Shown here one piece after another: positions 3,931 through 61,812 of a stretch of 64,000 bases of DNA. The position numbers and the translations under genes were made by a program. The notes under the pieces were generated by a model. It searched no databases, was not told the origin of the DNA, and was given only the letters and a program-made list of their open reading frames with translations. The stretch spans positions 2,914,001-2,978,000 of the forward strand of contig NZ_CP099567.1 in assembly GCF_022530855.2 (NCBI RefSeq), in the 5' to 3' direction. The stretch is from Candidatus Vondammii sp. HM_W22. Lineage in GTDB: Bacteria; Pseudomonadota; Gammaproteobacteria; Chromatiales; Chromatiaceae. Positions within the stretch are counted from its first letter, which is position 1, and every line of letters starts with the position of its first letter.

Positions 3931-4423
3931 AAATACTTCTCTATACTGCTTATTGAAAATTCCAGCATGTTTGTCCTACAGATTGAAAAAAAGTTCACTA
4001 GCACCTCTTTTCTGTCTCCCAGTGAATTACACAGACGCAGGATTATTTCTCAAAACACCGCGTAGATTTCTAATCGGAGGCTCTAGCTCAGCTTTCATTC
4101 CGAGTGCTATTTTACATTTACTTCATGCAGGACACTATCAGCATCTCTTTTCCCTTGGAATGGACTGTACAAGGCTAAAATAGCAAACCTTCGCTTCGCT
4201 TATGTGGACTCCCCTCCATCAACAACGAAATGATTAAAATATAGAATAAATGCGTGCTTATGTGCGAGCTCTAATTTGGGCAGCTAACCCAGGCCCAATG
4301 ATTTTTACGCGAACTGTATGGTCAAGTCTCTCCAGCGAGTTTGTTTGCTCTGTGCGAAGCACTGACTCTTACAGTTGATTTGTCATCTACATTAAGAATG
4401 CTTTTTGTTGGTGATTGTTACGC
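3931..4423. other. Intergenic stretch without a recognisable gene
   Basis: About 490 bp between moxR and an IS110 fragment. It must hold the moxR operon promoter. Short open frames exist, but none looks like a known protein or has a convincing ribosome site. The base composition looks more AT-rich than the neighbouring genes. I see no RNA gene in it. Confidence 0.5.
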
Positions 4424-4560
4424 TTAAGCCAATAACGGCTCAGCTTTATATTCTGTACCTTCCGTCAATAGGGCAAATGCCGTCCTGACCGTTTTGTTTG
4501 CTAATGCCACCGCTACACATTTTTTACTTTTGCACTCAAGCAATTGTTTTACCCTCTTTT
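4424..4560 (-). pseudogene. IS110-family transposase, C-terminal fragment
   Basis: On the minus strand a frame ending at the stop at 4424-4426 reads ...KKCVAVALANKTVRTAFALL..., then TEGTEYKAEPLLA and stop. The AVALANK-RIAWALLT-G-x-Y pattern is the usual C-terminus of IS110-family transposases (Transposase_20). Upstream of about 4560 the frame is lost, so only the last 40-45 codons survive. It sits just downstream of the ilvA stop. Confidence 0.6.
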
Positions 4561-4637
4561 CCTTTTTTGTTTGCGGTTCTCGTTTGTCAACATGGTTGAT
4601 AACGGATATCGAGCATTTTTACCCGCCCCTCCCAATT

Positions 4638-6167
4638 TCAATTATACCTCCCACCACAAGCAAACAGACGATAAGCAATATTATCTGTCTCATCCTGCCA
4701 TGGATAACCAAGATCCTTGAGGAACCGACTAAATTCACGTTTCTCGCCCTGATCGATCTGTACCCCCATGAGTACTCGACCATAGGCTGCACCATGATTG
4801 CGATAATGGAACAGACTGATATTCCAGCGCTTGCCCATTTCAGTGAGAAAATTGAGTAGGGCTCCAGGCCGTTCCGGGAATTCAAAACGGAACAGACTTT
4901 CATTTTTCACCCCGGGGGCATGCCCTCCCACCATATAGCGAATATGCAGCTTAGCCGCTTCATTATCAGTTAAATCCACCACGGAATAACCTTTATCACT
5001 AAGCTGATCTAGCAACGCCTCCCGCTGCTGAGGACTATCATTCAACTCAACGCCAACAAACACATGGGCACGCTCTGTATCCGCATAACGATAATTGAAT
5101 TCGGTGACACTCCGCTTGCCAATGGCCCGGCAGAAATGTAAAAAACTGCCGGGTTCCTCCGGTATCTCAACCGCCAGCAGCGCCTCTCGCTGCTCACCCA
5201 ACTCTGCCCGTTCGGCCACATGACGCAGGCGGTCAAAGTTAATATTGGCACCACTCTCAATGGCGATCAAACTCTGATCTCTCAAGCCTTCTCTCGCAAC
5301 ATATTTTTTCATCCCCGCCACTGCCAGAGCACCGGCAGGCTCTGCGATGCTACGGGTATCATCAAACACATCCTTGATCGCCGCACAGATCTCATCCGTG
5401 TTGACCAGAATCACCTCATCAACCACTTTACGGGCAAGCCGGAAAGTCTCTTTACCGATCATTTTGACTGCGACACCATCGGCAAAAATACCCACCTGCT
5501 TCAGACTTGTACGCCTGCCTTTTTCCAGGGAGTGCTGAAGCGTAGGAGCATCTTCAGGCTCTATGCCGATAATTTTCACATCAGGATAGACGTATTTTAC
5601 ATAGGAGCCAATACCACTGATCAACCCACCACCACCCACAGGGACGAAAATAGCATGAGGCGGACCGGCATGCTGACGCAACAACTCCATGCCGATGGTT
5701 CCCTGCCCTGCGATCACCTCGGGATCATCAAACGGGTGAATGAATGTCATACCCTTTTCGTCAGCTAACTGTAACGAGTGCTCATAAGCTTCGTCATATG
5801 AGTCCCCATACAAAACTGTCCTGGCGCCAAGATCATGTACCGACTGAACCTTGATCGGCGGGGTTGTCTTCGGCATAACAATCAATGCCCGAATATTTAA
5901 CCTTCTGGCAGAGAGCGCCACACCCTGAGCATGATTACCGGCAGAAGCGGCTATCACCCCCTGCTTACGCTGAGCATCAGAAAGATTCCGCATACGGTTA
6001 TAGGCACCCCGCAGCTTAAAAGAGAAGACAGGCTGCAGATCCTCACGTTTTAAGAAGACCTGATTCTCCAGGCGACGAGACAGGCGAGGCGCTTCATCGA
6101 GCGGCGTTTCATTGACCACATCATAGATCTGGGCCCGGAGTATTCTTTCAATATAGCTTTGAGGCAT
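4638..6167 (-). CDS. ilvA: Threonine ammonia-lyase, biosynthetic
   Basis: 509 residues from the ATG at 6167 (MPQSYIERILRAQIYDV), close to the 514 of E. coli IlvA. The open frame runs 39 codons further upstream, but that part has no family similarity. The PLP-binding lysine lies in FSFKLRGAYNRM and the phosphate-binding loop is PVGGGGLISGIG. Two ACT-like regulatory domains follow (from about residue 325). The second holds RFEFPERPGALLNFL and ends at the characteristic NIAYRLF. It converts threonine to 2-oxobutyrate, the first committed step to isoleucine, normally inhibited by isoleucine through the ACT region. rpiA, often its divergent neighbour, lies about 3.1 kb to the right beyond an IS block. 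Confidence 0.95.
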   Translation of the reverse strand: MPQSYIERILRAQIYDVVNETPLDEAPRLSRRLENQVFLKREDLQPVFSFKLRGAYNRMRNLSDAQRKQGVIAASAGNHAQGVALSARRLNIRALIVMPKTTPPIKVQSVHDLGARTVLYGDSYDEAYEHSLQLADEKGMTFIHPFDDPEVIAGQGTIGMELLRQHAGPPHAIFVPVGGGGLISGIGSYVKYVYPDVKIIGIEPEDAPTLQHSLEKGRRTSLKQVGIFADGVAVKMIGKETFRLARKVVDEVILVNTDEICAAIKDVFDDTRSIAEPAGALAVAGMKKYVAREGLRDQSLIAIESGANINFDRLRHVAERAELGEQREALLAVEIPEEPGSFLHFCRAIGKRSVTEFNYRYADTERAHVFVGVELNDSPQQREALLDQLSDKGYSVVDLTDNEAAKLHIRYMVGGHAPGVKNESLFRFEFPERPGALLNFLTEMGKRWNISLFHYRNHGAAYGRVLMGVQIDQGEKREFSRFLKDLGYPWQDETDNIAYRLFACGGRYN

Positions 6168-43456: not shown

Positions 43457-44903
43457 AGTCGATCCTGAAATATTCATTCCAGGCACTTAATAATACTGTT
43501 GTTTCTGTTTTGCAAACAGGAACAACAGTATGGACATGATATTTTTCAGCACAAAAAGAACCTCCTTCATCCATTTTCTGAAGTTGAAGGCAGCCGCCGC
43601 CATAAGCAAGTTAATCTGATCCCCGGCAAAGCCTTTAGGAAAGTTCCTTTTTAGCCTGTGGTCACTCTTTAAGTGACCACAGGCTCAATGCCAGCTCGTC
43701 TTCTGAAACGTTTTCTGGCTAATGCCATGGCTTCTTCTGAGGTATTCTTCCTGGCAGGCTTTGGCGTTACTATCTGTGTGTCATTAACCTTTGATTTGCC
43801 CCGGTAACCTCGATCAGCAATACCCACTTTGGGTACTCGATTGATGAGACGTTTCACCTGTGCCAAGACCTCAGGTACGGTGTGACCATCAAATACATTC
43901 TTCTCAAAAGCCAGGGCACCAATCACAATGCCCGCGTCCCTTGTGGTGGTGATTGATGTCTTGGTGCCAAACTCATAACGCTGCTGGGCCTTGCCTTTGC
44001 TCATACAGTAAATATGAGGTTCATGTAGGCTGTACAACTTATTTTTATCAGCACGCTTCTGATTCAGCATGCGCTGGTACAGGGCGAACTTTTCTGCATA
44101 GAATTTCTGTTGTTCTCCGGTCATCTTACGCTGTATTTCACGCAGTAATCGGCCGCTGATGGTCTTTAATCGCTTGACGGCCTTACGTGCCTTTTTACGA
44201 TTCCTCGGATGTGTGGCAAATCGGGTGGGGAGCTTGAGAATTTTTACTTCCTTCTCATGGCTTCGACTGAGCACGATACCTTCTGCTCGGGCCATCTTGA
44301 GTAACTGCCCGTGTATCTTTCGGTACTGCTTTGCATCAGTTGGAAAGGTAATGTTTTTCTCTTGTACGGTAGTGTCGATACACATTTCATCTTCGATCGC
44401 CTTTTCTTGATGTAAGGCGATAGAGGCAGCCAGGACCTTTTCAAAACCTTCGTTGCCAATACGCTTTCTGAAGTAAGTCAGGTCGGAGGGGTCACAAGGA
44501 AGTTGCCATTGGAATTCGATCTCACCCGTAAAACTCTGGTAGCAGGGATTTTGTATCCAGCGTTGAATCAGAACCTCGTCACTGAGGTCTTTCAGATGCT
44601 TGAGTATCGAGAGATCCACCATTAGGCGGATGGGTTTTGAGGGCTTTCCAAGATGAGAATAAAGCGGGCAAATTTAGCATCAAAATATGACCAGTCTATC
44701 TGTCTGGCCAGTAGAAAAAGTGGATTCTTGGGGTTCAGCTGATCCAGTAAGTTTTGGTGCAGGAAACTTTGCTGGTTGGGATTGGCTGTCTTGGATTTGC
44801 TCAATTATCCACCTCCGTTTCGTCCAGTTTTTCTCTGCTTTTACCCCTTTCCGGACGCTTATTTTATATAAATTATTGCGTTATGAATATTTCAGGGTCG
44901 ACT
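43457..44903 (-). mobile_element. IS5-type insertion sequence splitting dctM, complete ends
   Basis: Terminal inverted repeats: AGTCGATCCTGAAATATTCA at 43457 and TGAATATTTCAGGGTCGACT ending at 44903 (one mismatch). Exact 4-bp target duplication AAGT (43453-43456 and 44904-44907). Length 1447 bp. The dctM reading frame resumes on either side (SMVL on one, LITVCSQLFSLVFRG on the other). The transposase inside carries two frameshifts. Confidence 0.93.
43560..44804 (-). pseudogene. IS5-type transposase, two frameshifts
   Basis: Opens at 44804 with MSKSKTANPNQQSFLHQNLL and ARQIDWSYFDAKFA. A frameshift near 44665 leads into PLYSHLGKPSKPIRLMVDLS. The long frame to 43669 holds MCIDTTVQEKNITFPTDAKQ (first Asp), VGIADRGYRGKSKVNDTQIV and RKRFRRRAGIEPVVT. 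A small deletion at about 43665 brings a stop; the next frame finishes LKSDHRLKRNFPKGFAGDQI then NLLMAAAAFNFRKWM. Full length otherwise (DDE_Tnp_1 type). Confidence 0.9.
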
Positions 44904-45260: not shown

Positions 45261-46647
45261 GAGTTATAACTGAAAGTGTTGTTTGAAAGGAATTGAAAAA
45301 GAGCGGGGTATCTGGTTGATTTATTGTTGCGAGACATCAAAACAACCATTGGAGATACGCCACCATGAGTAAGAATAACGTTGTTAAGCTGGCAGTTCGA
45401 GATACGATTATCGATCCGCTGACAGAGTTGCTGAGAAGCGGTGCAGAGCAGTTGATCTACCAGGTGGTGGAGGCCGAGCTGCTGGAGCTGTTGGCGGAGC
45501 ACGTCGAGCGACGGACAGAGGATGGCAAGGTGGGTGTGGTGCGTAATGGTCACCTGCCAGCTCGTAAACTGCAGACAGGATTAGGGCCGGTCACGGTCAA
45601 GATCCCCAAAGTACGAGCGAAGACCGGCGAGCCGGTGACGTTCCGATCAGCTCTGGTGCCGCCGTATGTACGCAAGACGAAGTCACTGGAAGCGGCACTG
45701 CCGTGGCTCTACCTGAAGAGGATTTCCAGTGGAGAGATGGGTGAAGCCCTGAAAGTGCTGGTGGTTCCGGATGCAACAGGCTTGTCGGCGGGCAGGGTAT
45801 CGCGTCTGAAGCAGGTCTGGGCAGAAGAATATCGGAGCGGGTGCGAGGAGCGCCTGGATAAGGGCCATTGGGTGTATGTGTGGGCAGACGGTGTCTACAG
45901 CGGACAGAGAGCAGAGCAGACGAAGCTGTGTGCCCTGGTGGTGATCGGCGTGAATGAGCGTGGTGAGAAGCATTTTCTGGCAATTGAGGATGGTGTACGG
46001 GAGTCCACACAGAGCTGGCGGGAGGTGCTGTTAAAACTGAAGTCACGCGGACTGACCCCGCCAAAATTGGCGATCGGTGACGGTGCCATGGGATTCTGGG
46101 CTGCGCTGGAGGAAGTGTATCCGGAGACGCGCCAGCAGCGCTGCTGGATGCACAAGACCATGAACGTGCTGAACTGCCTGCCAAGGTCAGCTCAGCCGAA
46201 AGCGAAGCAGGCACGGCACAACATCTGGCAATCGGAGACCCAGGCCGATGCGGAAAAGGCCTTTGATCTGTTTATCAAAACGTATGAGCCAAAGTATCCG
46301 AAGGCTGCCATCTGTCTGCACAAAGACCGAGAGGAACTGATGGCTTTCTATCAATTTCCTGCGCAGCATTGGCAGAGTATTCGGACCAGCAATCCGATTG
46401 AATCCACCTTCGGGACAATCCGCCATCGAACCAAGCGTTCCAAGGGCTGCCTATCGCGTGACGGCATGCTACACATGATGTTCAAACTCGGCCGGTGTGC
46501 CGAGAAGAAGTGGAGGCGATTACGGGGTTTCGATTATCTGGCGAAGGTGATAACCGGAATCAAATTTAAAGAGGGTGTTGAGGTAGCAGGAGTCGATCAG
46601 GTCGCCGCTTGATTCAACTGGCTAAACACCAGATTTGACTATAACTC
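45261..46647 (+). mobile_element. IS256-family insertion sequence in dctM
   Basis: Ends GAGTTATAACTG (45261) and the inverse of ACTATAACTC (46647). Flanks are ATAATCAAC (45252-45260) and ACAATCAAC (46648-46656), 8 of 9 identical, a plausible target duplication with one change. Length 1387 bp. It carries an open transposase gene. Confidence 0.88.
45365..46612 (+). CDS. IS256-family transposase, open
   Basis: 415 residues, full length. It opens MSKNNVVKLAVRDTIIDPLT; the DDE residues are seen in VYVWADGVYSGQR (Asp), LAIGDGAMGFWAALEEV (Asp) and SIRTSNPIESTFGTIRHRTK (Glu). The C-terminal CAEKKWRRLRGFDYLAKVI is typical of the family. No stop or frameshift, the only transposase in the window that still looks functional. 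It disrupts dctM in the opposite orientation. Confidence 0.95.
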   Translation: MSKNNVVKLAVRDTIIDPLTELLRSGAEQLIYQVVEAELLELLAEHVERRTEDGKVGVVRNGHLPARKLQTGLGPVTVKIPKVRAKTGEPVTFRSALVPPYVRKTKSLEAALPWLYLKRISSGEMGEALKVLVVPDATGLSAGRVSRLKQVWAEEYRSGCEERLDKGHWVYVWADGVYSGQRAEQTKLCALVVIGVNERGEKHFLAIEDGVRESTQSWREVLLKLKSRGLTPPKLAIGDGAMGFWAALEEVYPETRQQRCWMHKTMNVLNCLPRSAQPKAKQARHNIWQSETQADAEKAFDLFIKTYEPKYPKAAICLHKDREELMAFYQFPAQHWQSIRTSNPIESTFGTIRHRTKRSKGCLSRDGMLHMMFKLGRCAEKKWRRLRGFDYLAKVITGIKFKEGVEVAGVDQVAA

Positions 46648-52829: not shown

Positions 52830-53378
52830 TTAGAAATTGGGCTTTTCAGGAGCGTCTTGGAACATCTTGACACTCTCCATAATCTCCTTTTTTGCCTCAT
52901 CCACACCACCCCAGCCACCGACACGCACCCACTTGCCCTCATCCAGATCTTTGTAGTGTTCGAAGAAGTGGGAGATACGGTCTAGGTTGTCCTGGGGTAG
53001 GTCTCTAAAATCCCCCACACTACGGTAGCTTTTGCAGAGCTTGTCGATGGGGACGGAAAGGATTTTGGCATCATCACCCGATTCATCGGTCATTTTTAAA
53101 ACGCCCACGGGGCGGCAACTAATGACAGATCCTGGGATCAGCGGGTAAGGTGTCATTACCAGAACATCCACCGGATCGCCATCAGGCGAGAGGGTATGAG
53201 GGACGTAGCCATAATTGCAAGGGTAGTGCATGGCGGTTGACATGAAGCGGTCGACGAACATCGCGCCGGTATCCTTGTCCAGTTCGTACTTTACCGGGTC
53301 GGAGTGGGCCGGAATTTCGATGATCACATTAACCTCGTTGGGTACATTACTGCCGGTGCTGACTCTATCCAGATTCAT
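52830..53378 (-). CDS. ppa: Inorganic pyrophosphatase (family I)
   Basis: 182 residues from the ATG at 53378 ([20 protein letters not shown]); the upstream 18 codons have no family match. Signatures: [38 protein letters not shown] with the D-x-D-P-x-D-V metal motif, and [20 protein letters not shown]. Hydrolyses PPi in the cytoplasm, competing for PPi with the membrane H+-PPase encoded just upstream. The hppA-ppa gap contains a strong hairpin. Confidence 0.96.
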
Positions 53379-53403
53379 CTGTTTTTTCGCCGTGCAAAAG
53401 AAA

Positions 53404-53430
53404 GGAGGTCGGTTATTAGAACCGACCTCC
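53404..53430 (-). terminator. Hairpin/terminator between hppA and ppa
   Basis: On the minus strand GGAGGTCGGTT pairs with AACCGACCTCC (11 bp, perfect) and is followed by TTTCTTTTG. It lies 107 bp past the hppA stop and 26 bp before the ppa ATG, so it probably terminates hppA and could also limit read-through into ppa. Confidence 0.82.
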
Positions 53431-53537
53431 ATCTTTTTATCAAAACTTCCGGTAAAACCATAAGAGTTATACCGGATTTGTCAGGAGCAAGGATCAAATC
53501 ATAGTGCTTCTGATGCCTGCTCCCGGGTCCCTATCTC

Positions 53538-55565
53538 TTAGATAAGAGGCACGATCAAGAGAGCAACAATGTTGATGATCTTGATCAACGGGTTGATCGC
53601 AGGACCGGCGGTGTCTTTGTAGGGATCGCCTACGGTGTCACCAGTAACGGCCGCTTTGTGGGCATCAGAGCCTTTGCCGCCAAAGTTACCATCCTCGATG
53701 TACTTTTTGGCGTTATCCCAGGCACCACCACCGGTGGTCATTGAGATAGCGACAAACAGGCCGGTTACGATGGTGCCGATCAGCAAACCACCCAACGCCT
53801 GAGCGCCAAGTGTCAGACCGACAATCACGGGTACTGCGATCGGCAGCAGGGAGGGAATGATCATCTCCTTGATGGCTGAGCGGGTCAGCATGTCCACAGC
53901 TTTTGAGTAATCAGGCTTCTGGCTGTAATCCATGATACCGGGCATCTCTTTGAACTGACGACGCACTTCGTTGACGATACCGCCGGCAGCACGACCGACA
54001 GCTTCCATCGCCATGGCACCGAACAGGTAGGGTACCAGTCCGCCAATGAACAGACCGATGATCACCATATGGTTCGAGAGATCAAAGGTCACGCTCTTGC
54101 CTGCAGCATCGAGGCTGTGGGTGAAGTCAGCAAACAGTACCAGCGCAGCCAGACCGGCAGAACCGATGGCATAACCTTTAGTTACTGCTTTGGTGGTATT
54201 ACCCACGGCGTCCAGAGGGTCGGTGATGTTGCGGATCTTCTCATCCAGTTCGGCCATCTCGGCAATACCACCGGCGTTGTCGGTGATCGGGCCGTAGGCG
54301 TCCAGTGCGACGATGATGCCGGTCATGGAGAGCATGGAGGTAGCGGCAATGGCGATGCCGTATAGTCCCGCCAGATCATAGGCGCCCCAGATTGAGGCAC
54401 AAATGGCCAGAACCGGTGCAGCTGTGGATTTCATCGAGACACCCAAACCGGCGATGACGTTGGTGCCGTCACCCGTGGTGGAGGCTTCGGCGATGTGCCT
54501 GACCGGGCTGTATTCTGTCGCTGTGTAGTACTCGGTAATCACAACCATGGCTCCCGTCAGCACCAAGCCGATCATAGCAGAACCAAATAACGCCATGGTT
54601 GGATTGGTTACTCCCTCAATCACTACGTCGCTCATCATGTAATCAGTAACAAAGTAGAAAGAGACCGCCGCGATAGCACCGGCTACACCCAGGCCCTTGT
54701 AGAGGGCGATCATGATCTTGGTATCGCCCTCTTTCGCCTTGACGAAGTAGGAACCGATGATGGAAGCGATAATAGAGACGCCACCCAATACCAGAGGATA
54801 AGTGATGGCGGTGCCGCCGGAGACCAGCAGGCTGCCCAACAGCATGGTGGCTACCACGGTTACCGCGTAGGTCTCGAACAGATCCGCTGCCATGCCGGCG
54901 CAGTCGCCCACGTTATCGCCTACGTTGTCAGCGATAACTGCCGGGTTGCGTGGGTCATCCTCAGGAATGCCAGCTTCCACTTTACCGACGATGTCGGCAC
55001 CGACATCGGCACCCTTGGTGAAGATACCACCGCCAAGCCGTGCGAAAATGGAGATCAGGGAGCCACCGAAGGCCAAGCCGACCAATGCATGCAGCGTGTC
55101 AGATTCACTGACACCCATCATGGTGAGAATACCATAGTAACCGGCAACACCTAGAAGACCCAGGCCAACCACCAGCATGCCGGTGATGGCACCGCCGCGA
55201 AAGGCGATCTGCAGAGCGGCGTTGAGGCCGTCGTTAGCGGCTTGAGCGGTGCGTGAATTGGCACGTACCGAGATGTTCATGCCGATGTAGCCGGCAGCAC
55301 CGGAGAGTATAGCGCCTATGGTAAAGCCGATAGCAGTGGTTGAGCCCAGTGCTACCCAGAGAATGGCCAGCATGATCACACCAACAATACTGATAGCGGT
55401 GTATTGGCGGTTCAGGTAGGCGCTTGCGCCTTCCCGTACCGCGGCAGAGATCTCTTTCATCCGGTCGTTGCCTTCCGGTTGCGCCAGGATCCATTTTACG
55501 GATACGAAGCCGTAAGCCAGTGCAGCGACTGCACAGGCCAGGGCGAAAATTAGCTCATTGCTCAC
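53538..55565 (-). CDS. hppA: Proton-translocating inorganic pyrophosphatase, K+-independent type
   Basis: 675 residues, about 16 membrane helices. Catalytic loops: [20 protein letters not shown], then [20 protein letters not shown] and [18 protein letters not shown]; later [12 protein letters not shown] and [20 protein letters not shown] then [20 protein letters not shown]. The segment [16 protein letters not shown] has Lys where K+-dependent enzymes have Ala (GNTTAA), so it should be of the K+-independent H+-pumping class. Start GTG at 55565 with GAGGAG 8 bp upstream. It couples PPi hydrolysis (or synthesis) to proton movement. Confidence 0.96.
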
Positions 55566-55776: not shown

Positions 55777-57030
55777 TTACAGCTCAAAGCTTTCCAATTT
55801 CTTCTCAACCGCTGCACCTTTCAGCGTGACATACACCGGCATGCCATTCTCATAGGGAGGGTATGCCTCGCCCTCGATCAGCGGGTAGAGATACTCCTTG
55901 CAGGCTTGAGTGATGCCAAAACTATCTTCGGTAATGAACTCCATGGGCATCATCTTCTCGACGTTGGCCACCTCGGAGAGGTTGGCTCTGCCAATCTCCC
56001 ATTGATAAGGGCTACTGGATTTCCGCACCACGGTTGGCATAATGGAGTTGTCGCCTTCCAACGCCATCTCAACTGCGGCCTTGCCCAGTGCATAGGCTTG
56101 CTCCACATCCGAGGTGGAGGAGAGGTGGCGTGCTGCACGTTGCAGGTAGTCGGCCACAGCCCAGTGGAATTTATGACCCAGAGCATCTTTAATCAGATTG
56201 GCAACCACCGGCGCGGCACCGCCCAATTGGGCATGGCCAAATGAATCGCGGGTACCCTGTTCAGCCAGGAACTTGCCATCCGGCCAGTGGGTGCCTTCAG
56301 AGACCACGATGGTGCAAAAGCCGTGTTCTTTGACCTTTCCATCGACCTTCGCCAGAAACTTCTCCTGGTTGAACTCGATTTCAGGGAAGAGAATGACCAC
56401 CGGGATATCGTTGTCTTCCACCAAACCACCCGCAGCAGCAATCCAGCCGGCGTGGCGGCCCATTACCTCAATAACAAAAATTTTGGTAGATGTTTTGGCC
56501 ATGGAGCGCACATCGTAGGAGGCTTCCAAGGTGGAGACGGCAATATATTTGGCTACTGAACCGAAACCAGGGCAGTTATCAGTGATTGGCAGATCGTTGT
56601 CCACGGTTTTTGGTACATGGATCGCCTGGACCGGATAGCCCATCTTTTCAGAGAGCTGGGACACCTTATAGCAAGTGTCGGCGGAGTCGCCGCCGCCATT
56701 GTAGAAGAAGTAACCGATGTTATGGGCTTTGAATACCTCAATCAGGCGCTCATATTCGCGTTTGTTCTCTTCAAGACTCTTGAGTTTGAATCGGCAGGAG
56801 CCGAAAGCACCGGATGGCGTGTGGCGCAGGCAGGCAATATCTTCAGCACTCTCCTGATTGGTGTCGATCAGGTCTTCGGTGAGTGCACCGATGATGCCGT
56901 TACGACCGGCATAGACGTTACCGATCTTGTCGCTGTGCTTGCGGGCGGTTTCGATAACGCCGCAGGCTGATGCATTGATCACAGCGGTTACACCGCCGGA
57001 TTGTGCGTAGAAAGCGTTTTTCTTGCTCAT
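55777..57030 (-). CDS. pfp: Pyrophosphate-dependent 6-phosphofructokinase
   Basis: 417 residues from the ATG at 57030 (MSKKNAFYAQSGGVTAVINA); upstream codons are unrelated. Motifs: YNGGGDSADTCYKVSQL (the nucleotide/PPi site; ATP-PFKs have GGDGS here) and HVPKTVDNDLPITDNCPGFG (catalytic PKTxDND), then VIEVMGRHAGWIAAAGGLVE. It belongs to the group-II long PFK clade that uses PPi. It works reversibly on fructose bisphosphate and, in autotrophs, on sedoheptulose bisphosphate, producing PPi. Its neighbour hppA can recover that PPi as a proton gradient. PPi use is inferred from sequence class. Confidence 0.9.
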   Translation of the reverse strand: MSKKNAFYAQSGGVTAVINASACGVIETARKHSDKIGNVYAGRNGIIGALTEDLIDTNQESAEDIACLRHTPSGAFGSCRFKLKSLEENKREYERLIEVFKAHNIGYFFYNGGGDSADTCYKVSQLSEKMGYPVQAIHVPKTVDNDLPITDNCPGFGSVAKYIAVSTLEASYDVRSMAKTSTKIFVIEVMGRHAGWIAAAGGLVEDNDIPVVILFPEIEFNQEKFLAKVDGKVKEHGFCTIVVSEGTHWPDGKFLAEQGTRDSFGHAQLGGAAPVVANLIKDALGHKFHWAVADYLQRAARHLSSTSDVEQAYALGKAAVEMALEGDNSIMPTVVRKSSSPYQWEIGRANLSEVANVEKMMPMEFITEDSFGITQACKEYLYPLIEGEAYPPYENGMPVYVTLKGAAVEKKLESFEL

Positions 57031-57108: not shown

Positions 57109-57453
57109 TCAGAGGTCGCCCTGTTCTTTCGCCTCGAAGTCGGCTTGTGCCTGAAGCAGAGAGACAACGCATTCAGCTACATCTGTGTATTCGTAAACCC
57201 CGGTGCTGTATTGGCGATAAGATTTATAAAAGAACTGGCAGCGGTATTTGTGTTCACCCGACTTGAAAATGACAAAGTTGCAGCCACCGTGCTTCCAGAC
57301 CCAGACAGGGCAGTTGCTGAGTTCGCGGTCTGAAGCCTGAAGGCGGATTTCTGCATCGGCAATCTGCAACTCAACATCGTTCTTATACCGCTCCTTAAGG
57401 GTGGTACGAATTGTCCAGTTTTCGCTGTCGGTTATATCCGGTATCTGGTTCAT
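57109..57453 (-). CDS. Conserved small hypothetical protein
   Basis: 114 residues, no signal or membrane helix. Three cysteines (NCPVWVWKHGGCNFV; YRCQFFYKSYRQYSTG); C-terminal acidic Gln-rich helix. I do not recognise a domain. It lies 78 bp upstream of pfp on the same strand and could be co-transcribed with it. Confidence 0.65.
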   Translation of the reverse strand: MNQIPDITDSENWTIRTTLKERYKNDVELQIADAEIRLQASDRELSNCPVWVWKHGGCNFVIFKSGEHKYRCQFFYKSYRQYSTGVYEYTDVAECVVSLLQAQADFEAKEQGDL

Positions 57454-57790
57454 TTTTTGTCCTGCTTTCTGTGAAAGCCCGGAAGAACAGTCTGACTCGC
57501 TAACCTTTCATTTTACATTGACTTTACGGGAATTCTGCGATTACTGTATCGGACCGGTTTTTCAGCGGCCAATGCAATTGTTGGATGCCGCCATGGATTT
57601 TCCTAATTCACTGCATTATCAGTGTGTTAGATTGTATATAAGTAAGCTCTCAATAACTTCGTGCGATGCAGGGTATCTCCATATTCTCCTATATGCAACT
57701 GCACGGAGTTTCTGAGATGTTCCGAATATGTCGATTGGTTCTGGGTCATGCCCGATAATCGAACAGGCTGAAGCAGAGAAAGGAGTTATC
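57454..57790. other. Divergent intergenic region between the 114-codon gene and adk
   Basis: About 340 bp. It should hold promoters for both directions. A TTGACT hexamer at 57518 on the plus strand could be a -35 box, but the matching -10 at 57541-57547 is weak (TACTGT), so I do not claim a promoter. The adk ribosome site AAAGGAG is at 57779-57785. Confidence 0.4.
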
Positions 57791-58711
57791 ATGCGGATCA
57801 TATTGCTGGGTGCGCCAGGTTCCGGCAAAGGGACCCAGGCAAAAAAATTGACCAGCTATTACGGTATTCCCCGTATCTCTACGGCGGAGATGGTCCGAGA
57901 GGCTGCGGCAGAGAGGAGCGAGGCCGGGAAACTGGCTAAACCCTATCTCGATCAGGGGCGGCATGTGCCTGACGAGATTGTTTGTGCCGTGTTCAAAGAG
58001 CGCTTCACCGAACCCGATGTGCGTAATGGCTTTTTGCTGGTCGGTTTCCCTAAAACGGCTTCCCAGTCCGATGCACTGGATGGGATTCTTGATGAGATGA
58101 ACCTCCCGCTAGATCTGGTGTTGTTGCTGGAGGGTGAATCTGATGATTTCATGGAGCGGCTGGAGGGGCGGCAGATTTGCCGGGCTTGTGGTCATACCTA
58201 TAATATTTTTAGTGCTCCCCTCCGGGTGGAGGGTATCTGTGATAAGTGTGGTGGACGGGTAAGGCGTCCAGCGGGCGATAATGATGAGGCTATCGCTAAC
58301 CGGATGCGAATCTATGAGGCTCAATCCGCCACCATGATTCAATACTACATACTCCATGGAAAACTGCGCCAGATCGATGCGGGAAGGGATTCTGAAGCCA
58401 CCTATGCTGCGATACGCAGGGTGATTGATGCGCACCCTCCGACAATTATAGAGACTGAACCCATTGTAGAGGCCGCTGAAGCGGTGAGCTTTGATCTGGC
58501 TCCAGAAGATGCTGAACCTTTGGTGGAGGCCGAGCCCGCTCCAGAGCGGATTGGAGCTGAGAAGATAAAGAGCAAGCCAGTAAAGACTGCTGGCGCCAAG
58601 AAAAAAGCGGTGCCAGTGAAAAAAGCAGTAACTAAGAAGAGGGCTACCCCGGCGAAGAAGGCCGCTGCCAGGAAAAAGACCGTTACAAAGAAAAAAGGCT
58701 CAAGGCGATAG
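57791..58711 (+). CDS. adk: Adenylate kinase with Lys/Ala-rich C-terminal tail
   Basis: 306 residues from the ATG at 57791, which follows AAAGGAG by 5 bp. P-loop LLGAPGSGKGTQAKKL. The LID is of the zinc type: CRACGHTY...CDKCGG. Catalytic ERLEGRQI and NRMRIYEAQSATMIQYY are kept. Unusual: STAEMVR replaces the normal STGDMLR, and GFPKT replaces GFPRT, an Arg to Lys change at a nucleotide-binding position. After about residue 220 an acidic linker (APEDAEPLVEAEPAPE) leads to a tail of about 45 residues of Lys-Lys-Ala repeats (VKKAVTKKRATPAKKAAARK), like histone-H1-type bacterial proteins. Normal Adk is 214-217. The tail may bind nucleic acid or phospholipid; inference only. Confidence 0.93.
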   Translation: MRIILLGAPGSGKGTQAKKLTSYYGIPRISTAEMVREAAAERSEAGKLAKPYLDQGRHVPDEIVCAVFKERFTEPDVRNGFLLVGFPKTASQSDALDGILDEMNLPLDLVLLLEGESDDFMERLEGRQICRACGHTYNIFSAPLRVEGICDKCGGRVRRPAGDNDEAIANRMRIYEAQSATMIQYYILHGKLRQIDAGRDSEATYAAIRRVIDAHPPTIIETEPIVEAAEAVSFDLAPEDAEPLVEAEPAPERIGAEKIKSKPVKTAGAKKKAVPVKKAVTKKRATPAKKAAARKKTVTKKKGSRR

Positions 58712-58866: not shown

Positions 58867-60225
58867 TTACTCCCCGGCAATCATCATGGATTCAATAAGC
58901 CATGACCCGGTTCGAATGCTGCCTCTAAGCTCTTCGTCGTTACCGACGGCGATTAGCTGGGAGAACATCTGTTTCATGTTCCCGGCAATGGTGATCTCTT
59001 CCACCGGGTATTGGATCTCTCCATTTTCAACCCAGAAACCGGCAGCTCCACGGGAGTAGTCGCCGGTGACCATATTTGTTCCCTGGCCCATCATCTCGGT
59101 GACCAGCAAACCGGAATCCATCTCTTTGATGAGACTGTTCAGGTCCCGTTCTCCGGGGTCAATGGCCAGATTGCGGACGCCGCCGGCATTACCGGTAGTC
59201 TGCATGCCCAGTTTTCGTGCTGAGTAGCTGCCCAGGATATAGCTCTGGAGCATGCCGTTCTCGACGATGTTTTTGGCGGCGGTAGCGACACCCTCACCAT
59301 CGAAAGGGGAGCTGGAAAGGCCGCCCTGGAGCAAGGGGTTTTCGTGAATATGGACAAAATCGGGGAAAACCTGTTTGCCCAGATGATCCAGCAGAAAGCT
59401 TGCCTGGCGATAGAGCGATGTGCCGCTGATGGCGCCGAGCAATACCCGCAGCAGGCTGACAGCAACATCGGACTGGAAAATGACAGGTGCTTCCCGGGTG
59501 GAGATTTTACGGGCGCCCAGTCGGGCGAGTGTCCGCTCGCCCGCTTTTTGTCCGACAGAGACGGAGGACTCCATGTTTTCTGCTTTGCGTGCAACGGTAT
59601 ACCAGTAGTCGCGCTGCATGGAGTCACCTTGTTGCCCGATGACGGAACAGCTGAGGCTGTGTCGGCTGCTTGGAAAACCGCCGATAAATCCGTGGCTGTT
59701 AGCATAAACCTGCAGCCCGTTGTGGCTATTGATTCCCGCTCCCTCGGAGTTTGTAATCTGTGCATCCAGATCAAGGGCGGCAGCTTCACACTCTTTGCCC
59801 AAATCGACAGCACTCTCCACATCGAGATTCCACGGGTGGTAGAGATCCAGGTCAGGGGTATCCTTGGCCATCAGCTCTTTATCCGCCAATCCGGCGCAAT
59901 CGTCTTCTGATGTGTAATGTGCAATATTGCACGCCGCTTTCACGGTATCCTTGATCGCCTCGTGGCTGAAATCAGAGGTGCTGGCAGAACCTTTGCGCTG
60001 ACCGAGATAGACGGTAATTCCAAGTCCCTGGTCGCGGGTGTGTTCGATAGTCTCCACCTCACCCATGCGAACATTGACACAAAGTCCAGCATCAATGGAA
60101 ACGGCTGCTTCCGAGGCGCTGGCACCCTGTTTTTCGGCTTCAGTCAGCAGATCCATAACCATCTGCTGCAATTGGGCCTGACGCTGTTTCATATTATCAA
60201 TTTCTCTCATTATTTTTACGGCCAT
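58867..60225 (-). CDS. pmbA: Metalloprotease subunit PmbA/TldE
   Basis: 452 codons from 60225; inner ATGs at 60210 and 60192 (the latter with GAGAGA 9 bp upstream) are possible starts, giving 447 or 441. Motifs: EVETIEHTRDQGLGITVYLG, QRKGSASTSDFSHEAI, ITNSEGAGINS, SSPFDGEGVATAAKNIVENG, GDYSRGAAGFWVENGEIQYP. TldE is the partner of TldD in a heterodimeric protease that degrades or trims peptides (microcin B17 maturation, CcdA turnover). tldD lies just upstream. Confidence 0.96.
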   Translation of the reverse strand: MAVKIMREIDNMKQRQAQLQQMVMDLLTEAEKQGASASEAAVSIDAGLCVNVRMGEVETIEHTRDQGLGITVYLGQRKGSASTSDFSHEAIKDTVKAACNIAHYTSEDDCAGLADKELMAKDTPDLDLYHPWNLDVESAVDLGKECEAAALDLDAQITNSEGAGINSHNGLQVYANSHGFIGGFPSSRHSLSCSVIGQQGDSMQRDYWYTVARKAENMESSVSVGQKAGERTLARLGARKISTREAPVIFQSDVAVSLLRVLLGAISGTSLYRQASFLLDHLGKQVFPDFVHIHENPLLQGGLSSSPFDGEGVATAAKNIVENGMLQSYILGSYSARKLGMQTTGNAGGVRNLAIDPGERDLNSLIKEMDSGLLVTEMMGQGTNMVTGDYSRGAAGFWVENGEIQYPVEEITIAGNMKQMFSQLIAVGNDEELRGSIRTGSWLIESMMIAGE

Positions 60226-60262
60226 TTTTTCTGCTAACTTGAATAAGCGCCTTTACGGAAGC

Positions 60263-61708
60263 TCATTTTCTAGTTGTCCCACCTACTGTGAGCTGATCAA
60301 TTTTCAGCGTCGGCTGACCCACGCCCACAGGCACGCTCTGGCCCTCTTTTCCACAGGTGCCAACACCTGCATCCAGTTCAAGGTTGTTGCCAATCATGCT
60401 GACTCTGGTCAGTACATCGGGACCGTTGCCAATCAGGGTGGCCCCTTTTACCGGGTGGGTCACTTTGCCATTTTTGATCAGGTAGGCCTCGCTGGCGGAA
60501 AAGACAAACTTCCCGGAGGTGATATCCACCTGCCCGCCAGCAAAGTTGACGGCGTATAACCCGTTCTCCACCGAGGCGATGATCTCTTCAGGATCCATTT
60601 CTCCCGGCAGCATGTAGGTATTGGTCATGCGTGGCATTGGCAGGTGGGCGTAGGACTCTCTACGCCCGTTTCCTGTTGATGAAACACCCGTCAGCCGGGC
60701 ATTGAGTTTGTCCTGCAGGTAGCCTTTGAGAATGCCATTCTCGATCAGTATTGTCTGTTGCGAGGTGGTGCCTTCATCGTCCATGTTGAGTGAACCGCGC
60801 CGTCCAGGCAGCGTTCCATCATCAACGATGGTGCAGCCGGTTGCCGCCACTTTCTCTCCAATGCGGCCGGAAAAAGCCGATGTCCCTTTGCGGTTGAAGT
60901 CGCCTTCAAGTCCATGGCCAATCGCTTCGTGCAGCAATATGCCAGGCCAGCCGGCACCCAGAACAACCGTCATACTGCCGGCGGGGGAGGGGATTGCCTC
61001 CAGGTTGACCAGGGCTTGCCGCACGGCTTCTCCAGCGTACCACAGAGCGCGATCTTCATCAATGAAAAACTGGAAGCTCTCTCTTGCGCCACCGCCGCTG
61101 GAGCCCTGTTCACGCTGGCCCTTGGATTCGACAATGACATTGACGTTGCAACGTACCAGTGGGCGTACATCGCCGCAAAGTGTCCCATCGCTGGCGACGA
61201 CCAGCACCACATCATGGGCTGATACCAGGCTGGCGGTCACCTGTTTGACCCGTGGGTCCTGTTTGCGCGCTTCGGCATCCAGCCGCTGCAGCAGGTCCAC
61301 TTTCTCCTGCTCACTCATGGTTGTCAGAGGGTTGATCGGTTCATATAGCGTGTGGCTGACAGCAGTGGCCTGGATTTTAATATGGTTTTGTTGTCCGCTT
61401 TGGGCGATGGCCCTGGCTGTCCTCCCTGCTTCGAGCAGGCTGGGAAGTTGAATTTCATCGGTGTAGGCGAAGCCGGTTTTTTCGCCGCTGATTGCGCGAA
61501 CGCCAACACCCTGTTCGATGTTGTAGTTGCCTTCTTTGATGATGCCGTCTTCCAATACCCATGACTCCAGGCGGCTTGCCTGAAAGTAGAGATCGGCCAT
61601 ATCAACTTGGTTGGAGAGCAGCTGCTCCATAACCCTGTCCAGGTCACTCTCTTTGAGTTCGGCAGGGGCGAGTAGTGTATTGCGGGCTATAGCGATGGGA
61701 TCGGGCAT
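60263..61708 (-). CDS. tldD: Metalloprotease TldD
   Basis: 481 residues from the ATG at 61708 ([20 protein letters not shown]), the length of E. coli TldD. The frame is open 22 codons further. Zinc motif [20 protein letters not shown] (HExxxH) and the conserved [40 protein letters not shown]. It acts with PmbA/TldE. The order yhdP-nit-tldD-pmbA is common in gammaproteobacteria. No nearby precursor peptide gene suggests a housekeeping, not a microcin, role. Confidence 0.97.
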
Positions 61709-61812
61709 CAGTTTCCAGGGTTTGTCTGTTAGGTTATCTTCAGCATTGGGCTGTTGCGGTTGTTTTTCAACCACATATGCTGCCTGGTATTTGCAGGGGT
61801 TGCCCCTCGCAT

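Follow-up and report, generated by a model that had tools for sequence, protein, structure and literature searches.

The adkT locus

The window, by which we mean the whole stretch of 64,000 nucleotides analysed here, carries a gene for an adenylate kinase (Adk)-family protein with a long basic extension, named adkT below, together with genes for several enzymes of pyrophosphate (PPi) metabolism. The features used in the analysis are the following:

52830..53432, minus strand: ppa, soluble inorganic pyrophosphatase (PF00719)
53538..55565, minus strand: hppA, membrane ion-translocating pyrophosphatase (PF03030)
55777..57030, minus strand: pfp, PPi-dependent phosphofructokinase, divergent from adkT (NF010675, 643.5 bits)
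57109..57453, minus strand: orf114, conserved 114-aa protein between pfp and adkT (no Pfam match at E 0.1)
57791..58711, plus strand: adkT, 306-aa adenylate kinase with a zinc-type lid, extended by an acidic linker and a Lys/Ala tail
57791..58429, plus strand: kinase core, residues 1-213
57884..57889, plus strand: STGD changed to STAE (G32A, D33E), with T31 and R36 retained (sequence comparison)
58040..58054, plus strand: DGFPR changed to VGFPK (D84V, R88K; sequence comparison)
58169..58261, plus strand: lid domain with C130, C133, C150 and C153, predicted zinc type (ADK_lid, residues 127-157)
58430..58561, plus strand: acidic linker, residues 214-257 (44 residues, net charge -11; pLDDT drops to low values at about residue 221)
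58562..58708, plus strand: Lys/Ala tail, residues 258-306 (49 residues, net charge +22; low pLDDT)
58867..61774, minus strand: pmbA and tldD, the other flank of adkT, common to part of the relatives

The ATG at 57791 is preceded by AAGGAG at 57780-57785 and is also backed by an N-terminus common to relatives, while an in-frame ATG upstream, at 57728, is a less likely alternative start. The stop ends at 58711, and the frame, codon pattern and stop are clean, just as had been claimed from the window alone. Transposase-like ORFs, recognised by eye, lie about 11-14 kb from adkT at 43669-44622 (minus strand) and 45365-46612 (plus strand).

Domain architecture and active site of AdkT

Profile searches placed the product of adkT in the adenylate kinase sequence family, with 140.9 bits against PF00406 (Pfam ADK; gathering score 26.8), 40.9 bits against ADK_lid and 186.4 bits against TIGR01351 (cut-off 168). 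The closest solved structures by sequence, 5g3y, 5g3z, 5g40 and 1zin, are all named adenylate kinase. The four lid cysteines occupy invariant columns of a 32-row alignment and mark the lid as zinc type, for which zinc binding is predicted. In the AlphaFold model the block means of pLDDT are 87-96 for residues 1-220 and 45-60 for residues 221-306; taking low pLDDT as a proxy for disorder, the protein probably consists of a folded core followed by a disordered linker and tail.

At 306 residues AdkT exceeds the 214 of a standard Adk by about 90, as originally predicted, and the acidic linker and histone H1-like tail reported there are both real. The last 49 residues include 18 Lys and no Asp or Glu, giving a disordered (by the pLDDT proxy), Lys/Ala-rich and strongly basic C-terminus of the H1-like (AlgP/PhaF) type. 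The best 45-residue stretch of the adkT ORF holds 18 Lys, compared with 9 in the runner-up among the 54 window ORFs of at least 150 aa in six frames. Lysine in the tail is encoded by AAG (11) and AAA (7) and alanine by all four of its codons, and this mixture argues against fresh DNA slippage.

We assigned E. coli numbering via the genome's standard Adk and scored nine catalytic residues, namely K13, T31, R36, D84, R88, R119, R123, R156 and R167; the numbering and the catalytic roles are those that we take to hold for E. coli Adk. The changes in AdkT are G32A, D33E, D84V, R88K, R156P and D158G, of which R156P is alignment-dependent, with Arg residues standing directly before the position. The replacements of STGD by STAE and FPRT by FPKT had been read correctly from the window, and D84V and R156P had been missed. 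AdkT thus lacks three of the nine residues that we expect in an active adenylate kinase (D84V, R88K, R156P). Judged from these substitutions, its core is probably crippled and not that of an ordinary kinase. It retains K13, T15, T31, R36, R119, R123 and R167, and so may still be active.

A second, standard adk, whose product is 214 aa long, is present in the genome (3.35 Mb, one contig) at C1:1103236, downstream of an ORF recognised by eye as the final portion of HtpG; AdkT is 38% identical to it over residues 1-187. Such a gene, along with absence of kinase activity in AdkT, had been named as what would change the original reading, and the gene half of that pair is present. AdkT keeps its place in the family; the additional loss of D84 and R156 and the standard adk elsewhere make an ordinary kinase improbable.

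A clade of tailed adenylate kinases

At least 38 genomes in a set of 112 from related gammaproteobacteria, the present one included, encode a tailed Adk, defined as one with at least 60 residues beyond position 213; the 38 are a lower bound, and one of them (G050) is split over two contigs. A species-level collection, which overlaps these genomes in part (the duplicates L116, L117 and L125 were excluded from the tree), yielded further examples from a Lamellibrachia symbiont and Sedimenticola sp. HyVt-446, and others occur in Chromatiales, Ectothiorhodospiraceae and Acidiferrobacteraceae MAGs. Given this recurrence in relatives, and the 18 against 9 Lys noted above, we reject chance or an assembly artefact as the source of the tail: absence from all relatives had been proposed as the mark of a chance extension, and the tail is present in them.

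Complete tails range from 71 to 329 residues among the 38, and reach 440 in another genome (L198), so that the 93-residue extension of AdkT is among the short ones of the family. Lys/Arg-rich ends are found in 34 of 36 scored tails; among the 34 scored tails with a stop codon the number is 32. The extension in G065 (L134) is basic and has no Lys-rich stretch by our scoring rule. In L114, L132 and L044 the tail changes reading frame within the repeat, passing from Lys-rich to Arg-rich or Glu/Gly-rich sequence, through either slippage or assembly error.

In a tree built from 218 alignment columns of 81 cores, 47 rows unite in one clade with support 99/93, all of them tailed except L173, a truncated tailed-type Adk in which residue loss was judged on the first part only. 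L057, with a tail of 124 residues, falls outside this clade on an unresolved fork, and the fewest tail changes required on the tree are two. The bootstrap of this tree had yet to converge completely, numerous forks lack resolution, and long branches are formed by several rows with catalytic losses. The same lineages also contain a separate clade of seven tail-less Adks (L142, L149, L155-L159; support 100/100) with no pfp or ppa in the fetched stretch.

A 69-residue tail of L113, used as a query against the genome of the window, gave no matches and missed even adkT itself, so that this negative carries no weight. Lys-rich ORFs elsewhere in the 1.33 Mb of fetched loci are tail pieces in other frames and several ORFs unrelated to tails. 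A free-standing one, very rich in Lys and some 156 aa long (L034, the same as L117, 1636-2106, plus strand; no Pfam match at 1e-5), lies about 4 kb from the tailed adk.

Association with genes of pyrophosphate metabolism

The expectation that tailed Adks would cluster beside hppA and pfp was borne out. In all 36 tailed loci that hold pfp the two genes are divergent neighbours, with 241-1087 bases from start to start, and the remaining two of the 38 have ppa and no pfp in the fetched stretch. Across the 38 loci ppa was seen in 24, hppA in 21 and orf114 in 24, counts that are affected by the many stretches ended by contig ends. The association extends to tail-less Adks, four of which (L145, L162, L163, L164) are divergent from pfp and three (L052, L058, L077) adjoin ppa; thirteen other tail-less loci have neither gene adjoining, although in L133 ppa is 2.4 kb off.

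The fact that pfp is present in 101 of the 112 genomes indicates that it does not require adkT. In two genomes of genus g4 (L174, L175) the order engB-moaC-phosphoesterase-ppa-pfp-orf114-pmbA-tldD is retained with adkT missing, and no recognisable trace of it was detected in the gap in these two genomes; its absence from this conserved synteny indicates that adkT is dispensable.

We also considered orf114 as an adkT-specific partner and rejected it, as it stays by pfp where adkT is missing: it was found in 13 of 20 fetched pfp regions, one of which (L173) also has part of an adkT. Its AF2 model, built from two sequences, is poor (pLDDT 61.7), and a match to TIGR04198 (17.3 bits, cut-off 185) is attributed to chance, being not repeated in three relatives. 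A link to APS reductase, through the use of AMP and PPi in sulfite oxidation, was likewise set aside as a requirement, with aprA in 28 of 38 tailed and 40 of 74 other genomes; the excess in tailed genomes is suggestive at most.

The common theme of the locus is AMP and PPi, both made by ATP-splitting reactions, and published schemes of metabolism based on PPi assign the handling of AMP to adenylate kinase (PMC7657619). In G074 a single 634-aa ORF (L161, 5133-7037) fuses Pfp to a standard-type Adk, which suggests a functional link between both enzymes. In L057 (Acidiferrobacteraceae) the Pfp adjoining the tailed Adk (4019-5359, minus strand) has a Lys-rich N-terminal extension; this single case would fit a shared anchor. 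A tubeworm symbiont has been described in which pfp is co-encoded with hppA, as at the adkT locus, and the passage seen names no neighbouring Adk (PMC6908572). The Lamellibrachia symbiont record L033 contains both the pfp/hppA cluster and a tailed Adk.

These associations bear on a rival account of the locus, in which AdkT remains an active kinase that the tail tethers and that serves the AMP side of PPi metabolism. ATP-splitting reactions would yield AMP and PPi, of which PPi would pass to Pfp, HppA and Ppa and AMP to AdkT, or alternatively AdkT would supply AMP to enzymes that use AMP and PPi. The linkage of intact tail-less Adks to pfp and ppa or hppA, the fusion ORF of G074 and the coupling of AMP, PPi and adenylate kinase described for PPi-dependent glycolysis (PMC7657619) all favour it, as does the occurrence of the tailed Adk as the sole, intact Adk in seven genomes. 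Against it stand D84V, R88K and R156P in AdkT itself and the loss of D84 in 18 and of R36 in 16 of the 38 tailed Adks, and we regard it as unlikely, at about one chance in four.

Recurrent loss of catalytic residues

At least one of the nine catalytic residues is lost in 26 of the 38 tailed Adks (hereafter decayed), and 12 are intact; by comparison, 30 of 32 tail-less rows are intact at all nine. T31 is lost in 19 of the 38, D84 in 18 and R36 in 16, with rarer losses of R123 (6), R88 (5), R156 (4), R119 (2), R167 (2) and K13 (1), so that, as read from the alignment, most losses fall at T31, D84 and R36, on the AMP/Mg side of the predicted active site. Of the 25 decayed rows shown, 13 have an altered P-loop T15, two of them with Ser in its place, which makes it unsure that ATP binding is retained. 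At least four lid cysteines are present in all 37 untruncated tailed Adks. The fewest changes that account for catalytic-residue loss on the whole tree are seven, of which the tail-less L168 and L161 give two and the tailed set about five. An enzyme part that has repeatedly lost catalytic residues while its tail was retained hints at a new, non-enzymatic job.

Where another Adk is present in the genome, 5 tailed Adks are intact and 24 decayed, whereas among the 9 of 38 genomes in which the tailed Adk is the sole Adk found (by PF00406 matches per genome) 7 are intact and 2 decayed (Fisher p 0.0017), an association that shared ancestry inflates. Supported branches supplied only two pairs for an independent-pairs test, which was not significant (sign test p 1). 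The two genomes with a sole and decayed Adk are 72% (G040) and 90% (G051) complete. G250 (L207), which lies outside the 38 and is 94% complete, has a sole Adk match with K13E in an open-ended row, possibly a counter-example to this pattern or a sequence error. The count of other Adks in G050 is probably one too high, the halves of its adkT having been counted apart, and its class is unaffected.

AdkT could alternatively be a relic on its way out, with selection relaxed once the standard Adk arrived and the tail carried along as a neutral low-complexity passenger. Decayed rows do have longer end branches (median 0.53, n=25, vs 0.15, n=22; p 6.5e-6), adkT has gone without trace from the two g4 genomes, a frame change takes the tails of L114 and L132 out of the Lys-coding frame, and the L134 tail has lost its Lys-rich character. 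However, dN/dS, computed by a simple counting method and hence rough, is well under 1 in nearly all measurable decayed pairs. In genus g42, with five rows that are all decayed, core dN/dS is 0.036-0.115 (9 of 10 pairs, the tenth with saturated dS), and the corresponding values are 0.030-0.082 in g45 (14 of 15 pairs; six rows, five intact) and 0.017-0.147 in g21 (15 pairs; six rows, all intact). The single pair of g51, both decayed, gives 0.21, and other decayed pairs give 0.09-0.17 where dS was computable, three being saturated. The rows of these four genera come from a 210-genome family set and cover 5 of 9 g42, 2 of 2 g51, 6 of 6 g45 and 6 of 6 g21 genomes. The decayed pair L131-L122 has a core dN/dS of 0.60, against 0.19 for pfp, and the matching pfp value is lower than that of the decayed core in every comparable case. 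Decayed cores evolve faster than pfp, yet are mostly constrained, and this clear constraint (dN/dS about 0.04-0.2 within genera) indicates that they are not pseudogenes. The retention of Lys/Arg-rich sequence to the end in 32 of 34 complete scored tails and of at least four lid cysteines in 37 untruncated rows likewise argues against a relic, which we consider improbable.

Relationship to known tailed proteins

In its core (residues 1-213), four lid cysteines and P-loop AdkT resembles the zinc-lid bacterial Adks (PDB 1zin; TIGR01351, NF001380), from which it differs by 93 extra C-terminal residues and by D84V, R88K and R156P; it falls below the NF001380 cut-off (231.8 vs 251 bits). A Lys-rich tail of about 100 residues on an Adk is also seen in PRK13808/NF010381, whose hosts we take to be alphaproteobacteria such as Bradyrhizobium. 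AdkT scores far below the cut-off of that family (145.2 vs 426 bits), and PRK13808 Adks have a short lid without the cysteines of AdkT and, in two loci inspected by eye, the P-loop, Thr31, Arg36 and DGFPRT. NF010381 exceeded its cut-off in 10 of 398 Pseudomonadota genomes, all with one family code, and all ten proteins (L218-L227) have Lys-rich tails. In two loci examined by eye (L219, L225) the gene stands in the order secY-adk-rpsM within a ribosomal-protein operon. We infer that the two kinds of tail are convergent, apparently with two independent origins. Such a tail is thus not tied to PPi genes, and tailed Adks in themselves were known before.

By composition only, the AdkT tail resembles the Lys/Ala/Pro-rich, predicted disordered C-terminal tails of Pseudomonas AlgP and PhaF, proteins with KPAA-repeat H1-like tails whose N-terminal domains differ from AdkT. 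AlgP of Pseudomonas aeruginosa, whose C-terminal region consists of 154 residues with KPAA repeats, is found on polyphosphate (polyP) granules, and its tail region is reported to serve in DNA binding and polyP-granule spacing (PMC9239181). This precedent raises the alternative that the tail binds polyP and places AdkT on polyP granules, perhaps for exchange between polyP and AMP. The pyrophosphate neighbours and two ppk2 genes in the genome of the window, the one in which ppk2 was sought, are consistent with it. On the other hand, ppk1 was not found in this genome and shows no association with the tail across genomes (25 of 38 tailed vs 46 of 74 others), AlgP-type tails are reported to bind DNA too (PMC9239181), and the convergent tails occur in a ribosomal-protein operon (two loci). 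Given the ppk1 results we lowered polyP as a general explanation, and see only a slim chance for it. The original suggestion of a tie to PPi or polyP thus survives as far as the gene neighbours pfp, hppA and ppa are concerned; that the tail itself is the link is not supported, in view of the tail-less Adks at loci of the same kind, of PRK13808 and of the failure to find ppk1 in this genome, which does have two ppk2 genes.

A possible pseudo-adenylate-kinase on a polyanion

The reading that we tentatively prefer, with a probability just short of even and argued from sequence comparison, is that AdkT has become a tethered pseudo-kinase or low-activity kinase on a polyanion in genomes where a standard Adk is present. 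Its ancestor would have been an ordinary, active zinc-lid Adk in an AMP/PPi gene cluster, with ppa next to it and pfp in divergent orientation. The Lys/Ala tail would have been gained early in this gammaproteobacterial lineage; the linkage and the tail clade are observed, and the direction of change is inferred from them. With a standard Adk present, phosphotransfer would be covered, and the core has, as the sequences show, often lost residues of the AMP and Mg sites. Purifying selection still acts on the protein, in which the lid Cys, the P-loop Lys and most lid Arg are preserved. In its present form AdkT would chiefly bind nucleotides while tethered, and would catalyse phosphotransfer weakly if at all. 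The tail would fix it to a polyanion of the cell, with nucleic acid (DNA of the nucleoid, or RNA) the likeliest candidate, and the core, close to the enzymes that handle PPi, may bind adenine nucleotide in a sensing or scaffolding role.

The broader proposal, that these proteins form a new class of pseudo-adenylate-kinases in which the AMP and Mg sites were lost several times once a standard Adk had taken over catalysis, and which were kept as nucleotide sensors or scaffolds, bound to nucleic acid or another polyanion and tied to pfp-hppA-ppa, is possible, and we hold it with less confidence. Among the matches listed in a search of the open-licence literature (titles and starts of abstracts), none dealt with an Adk beside pfp that is tailed or a pseudoenzyme. 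While Adk and tailed Adks are already known, we found no earlier description of a sizeable clade of tailed Adks with repeated catalytic decay.

Adenylate kinase is a textbook housekeeping enzyme whose catalytic residues are strongly conserved. The loci described here provide a natural series, at one place in the genome and in the company of PPi enzymes, that runs from a sole, intact tailed Adk to proteins in which several catalytic residues are gone. With this series one can test directly by what route an essential enzyme becomes a pseudoenzyme, and which function an H1-like tail has when attached to a metabolic enzyme. The adkT locus likewise allows a test of the physical coupling of adenylate and PPi handling, and the natural Pfp-Adk fusion points the same way.
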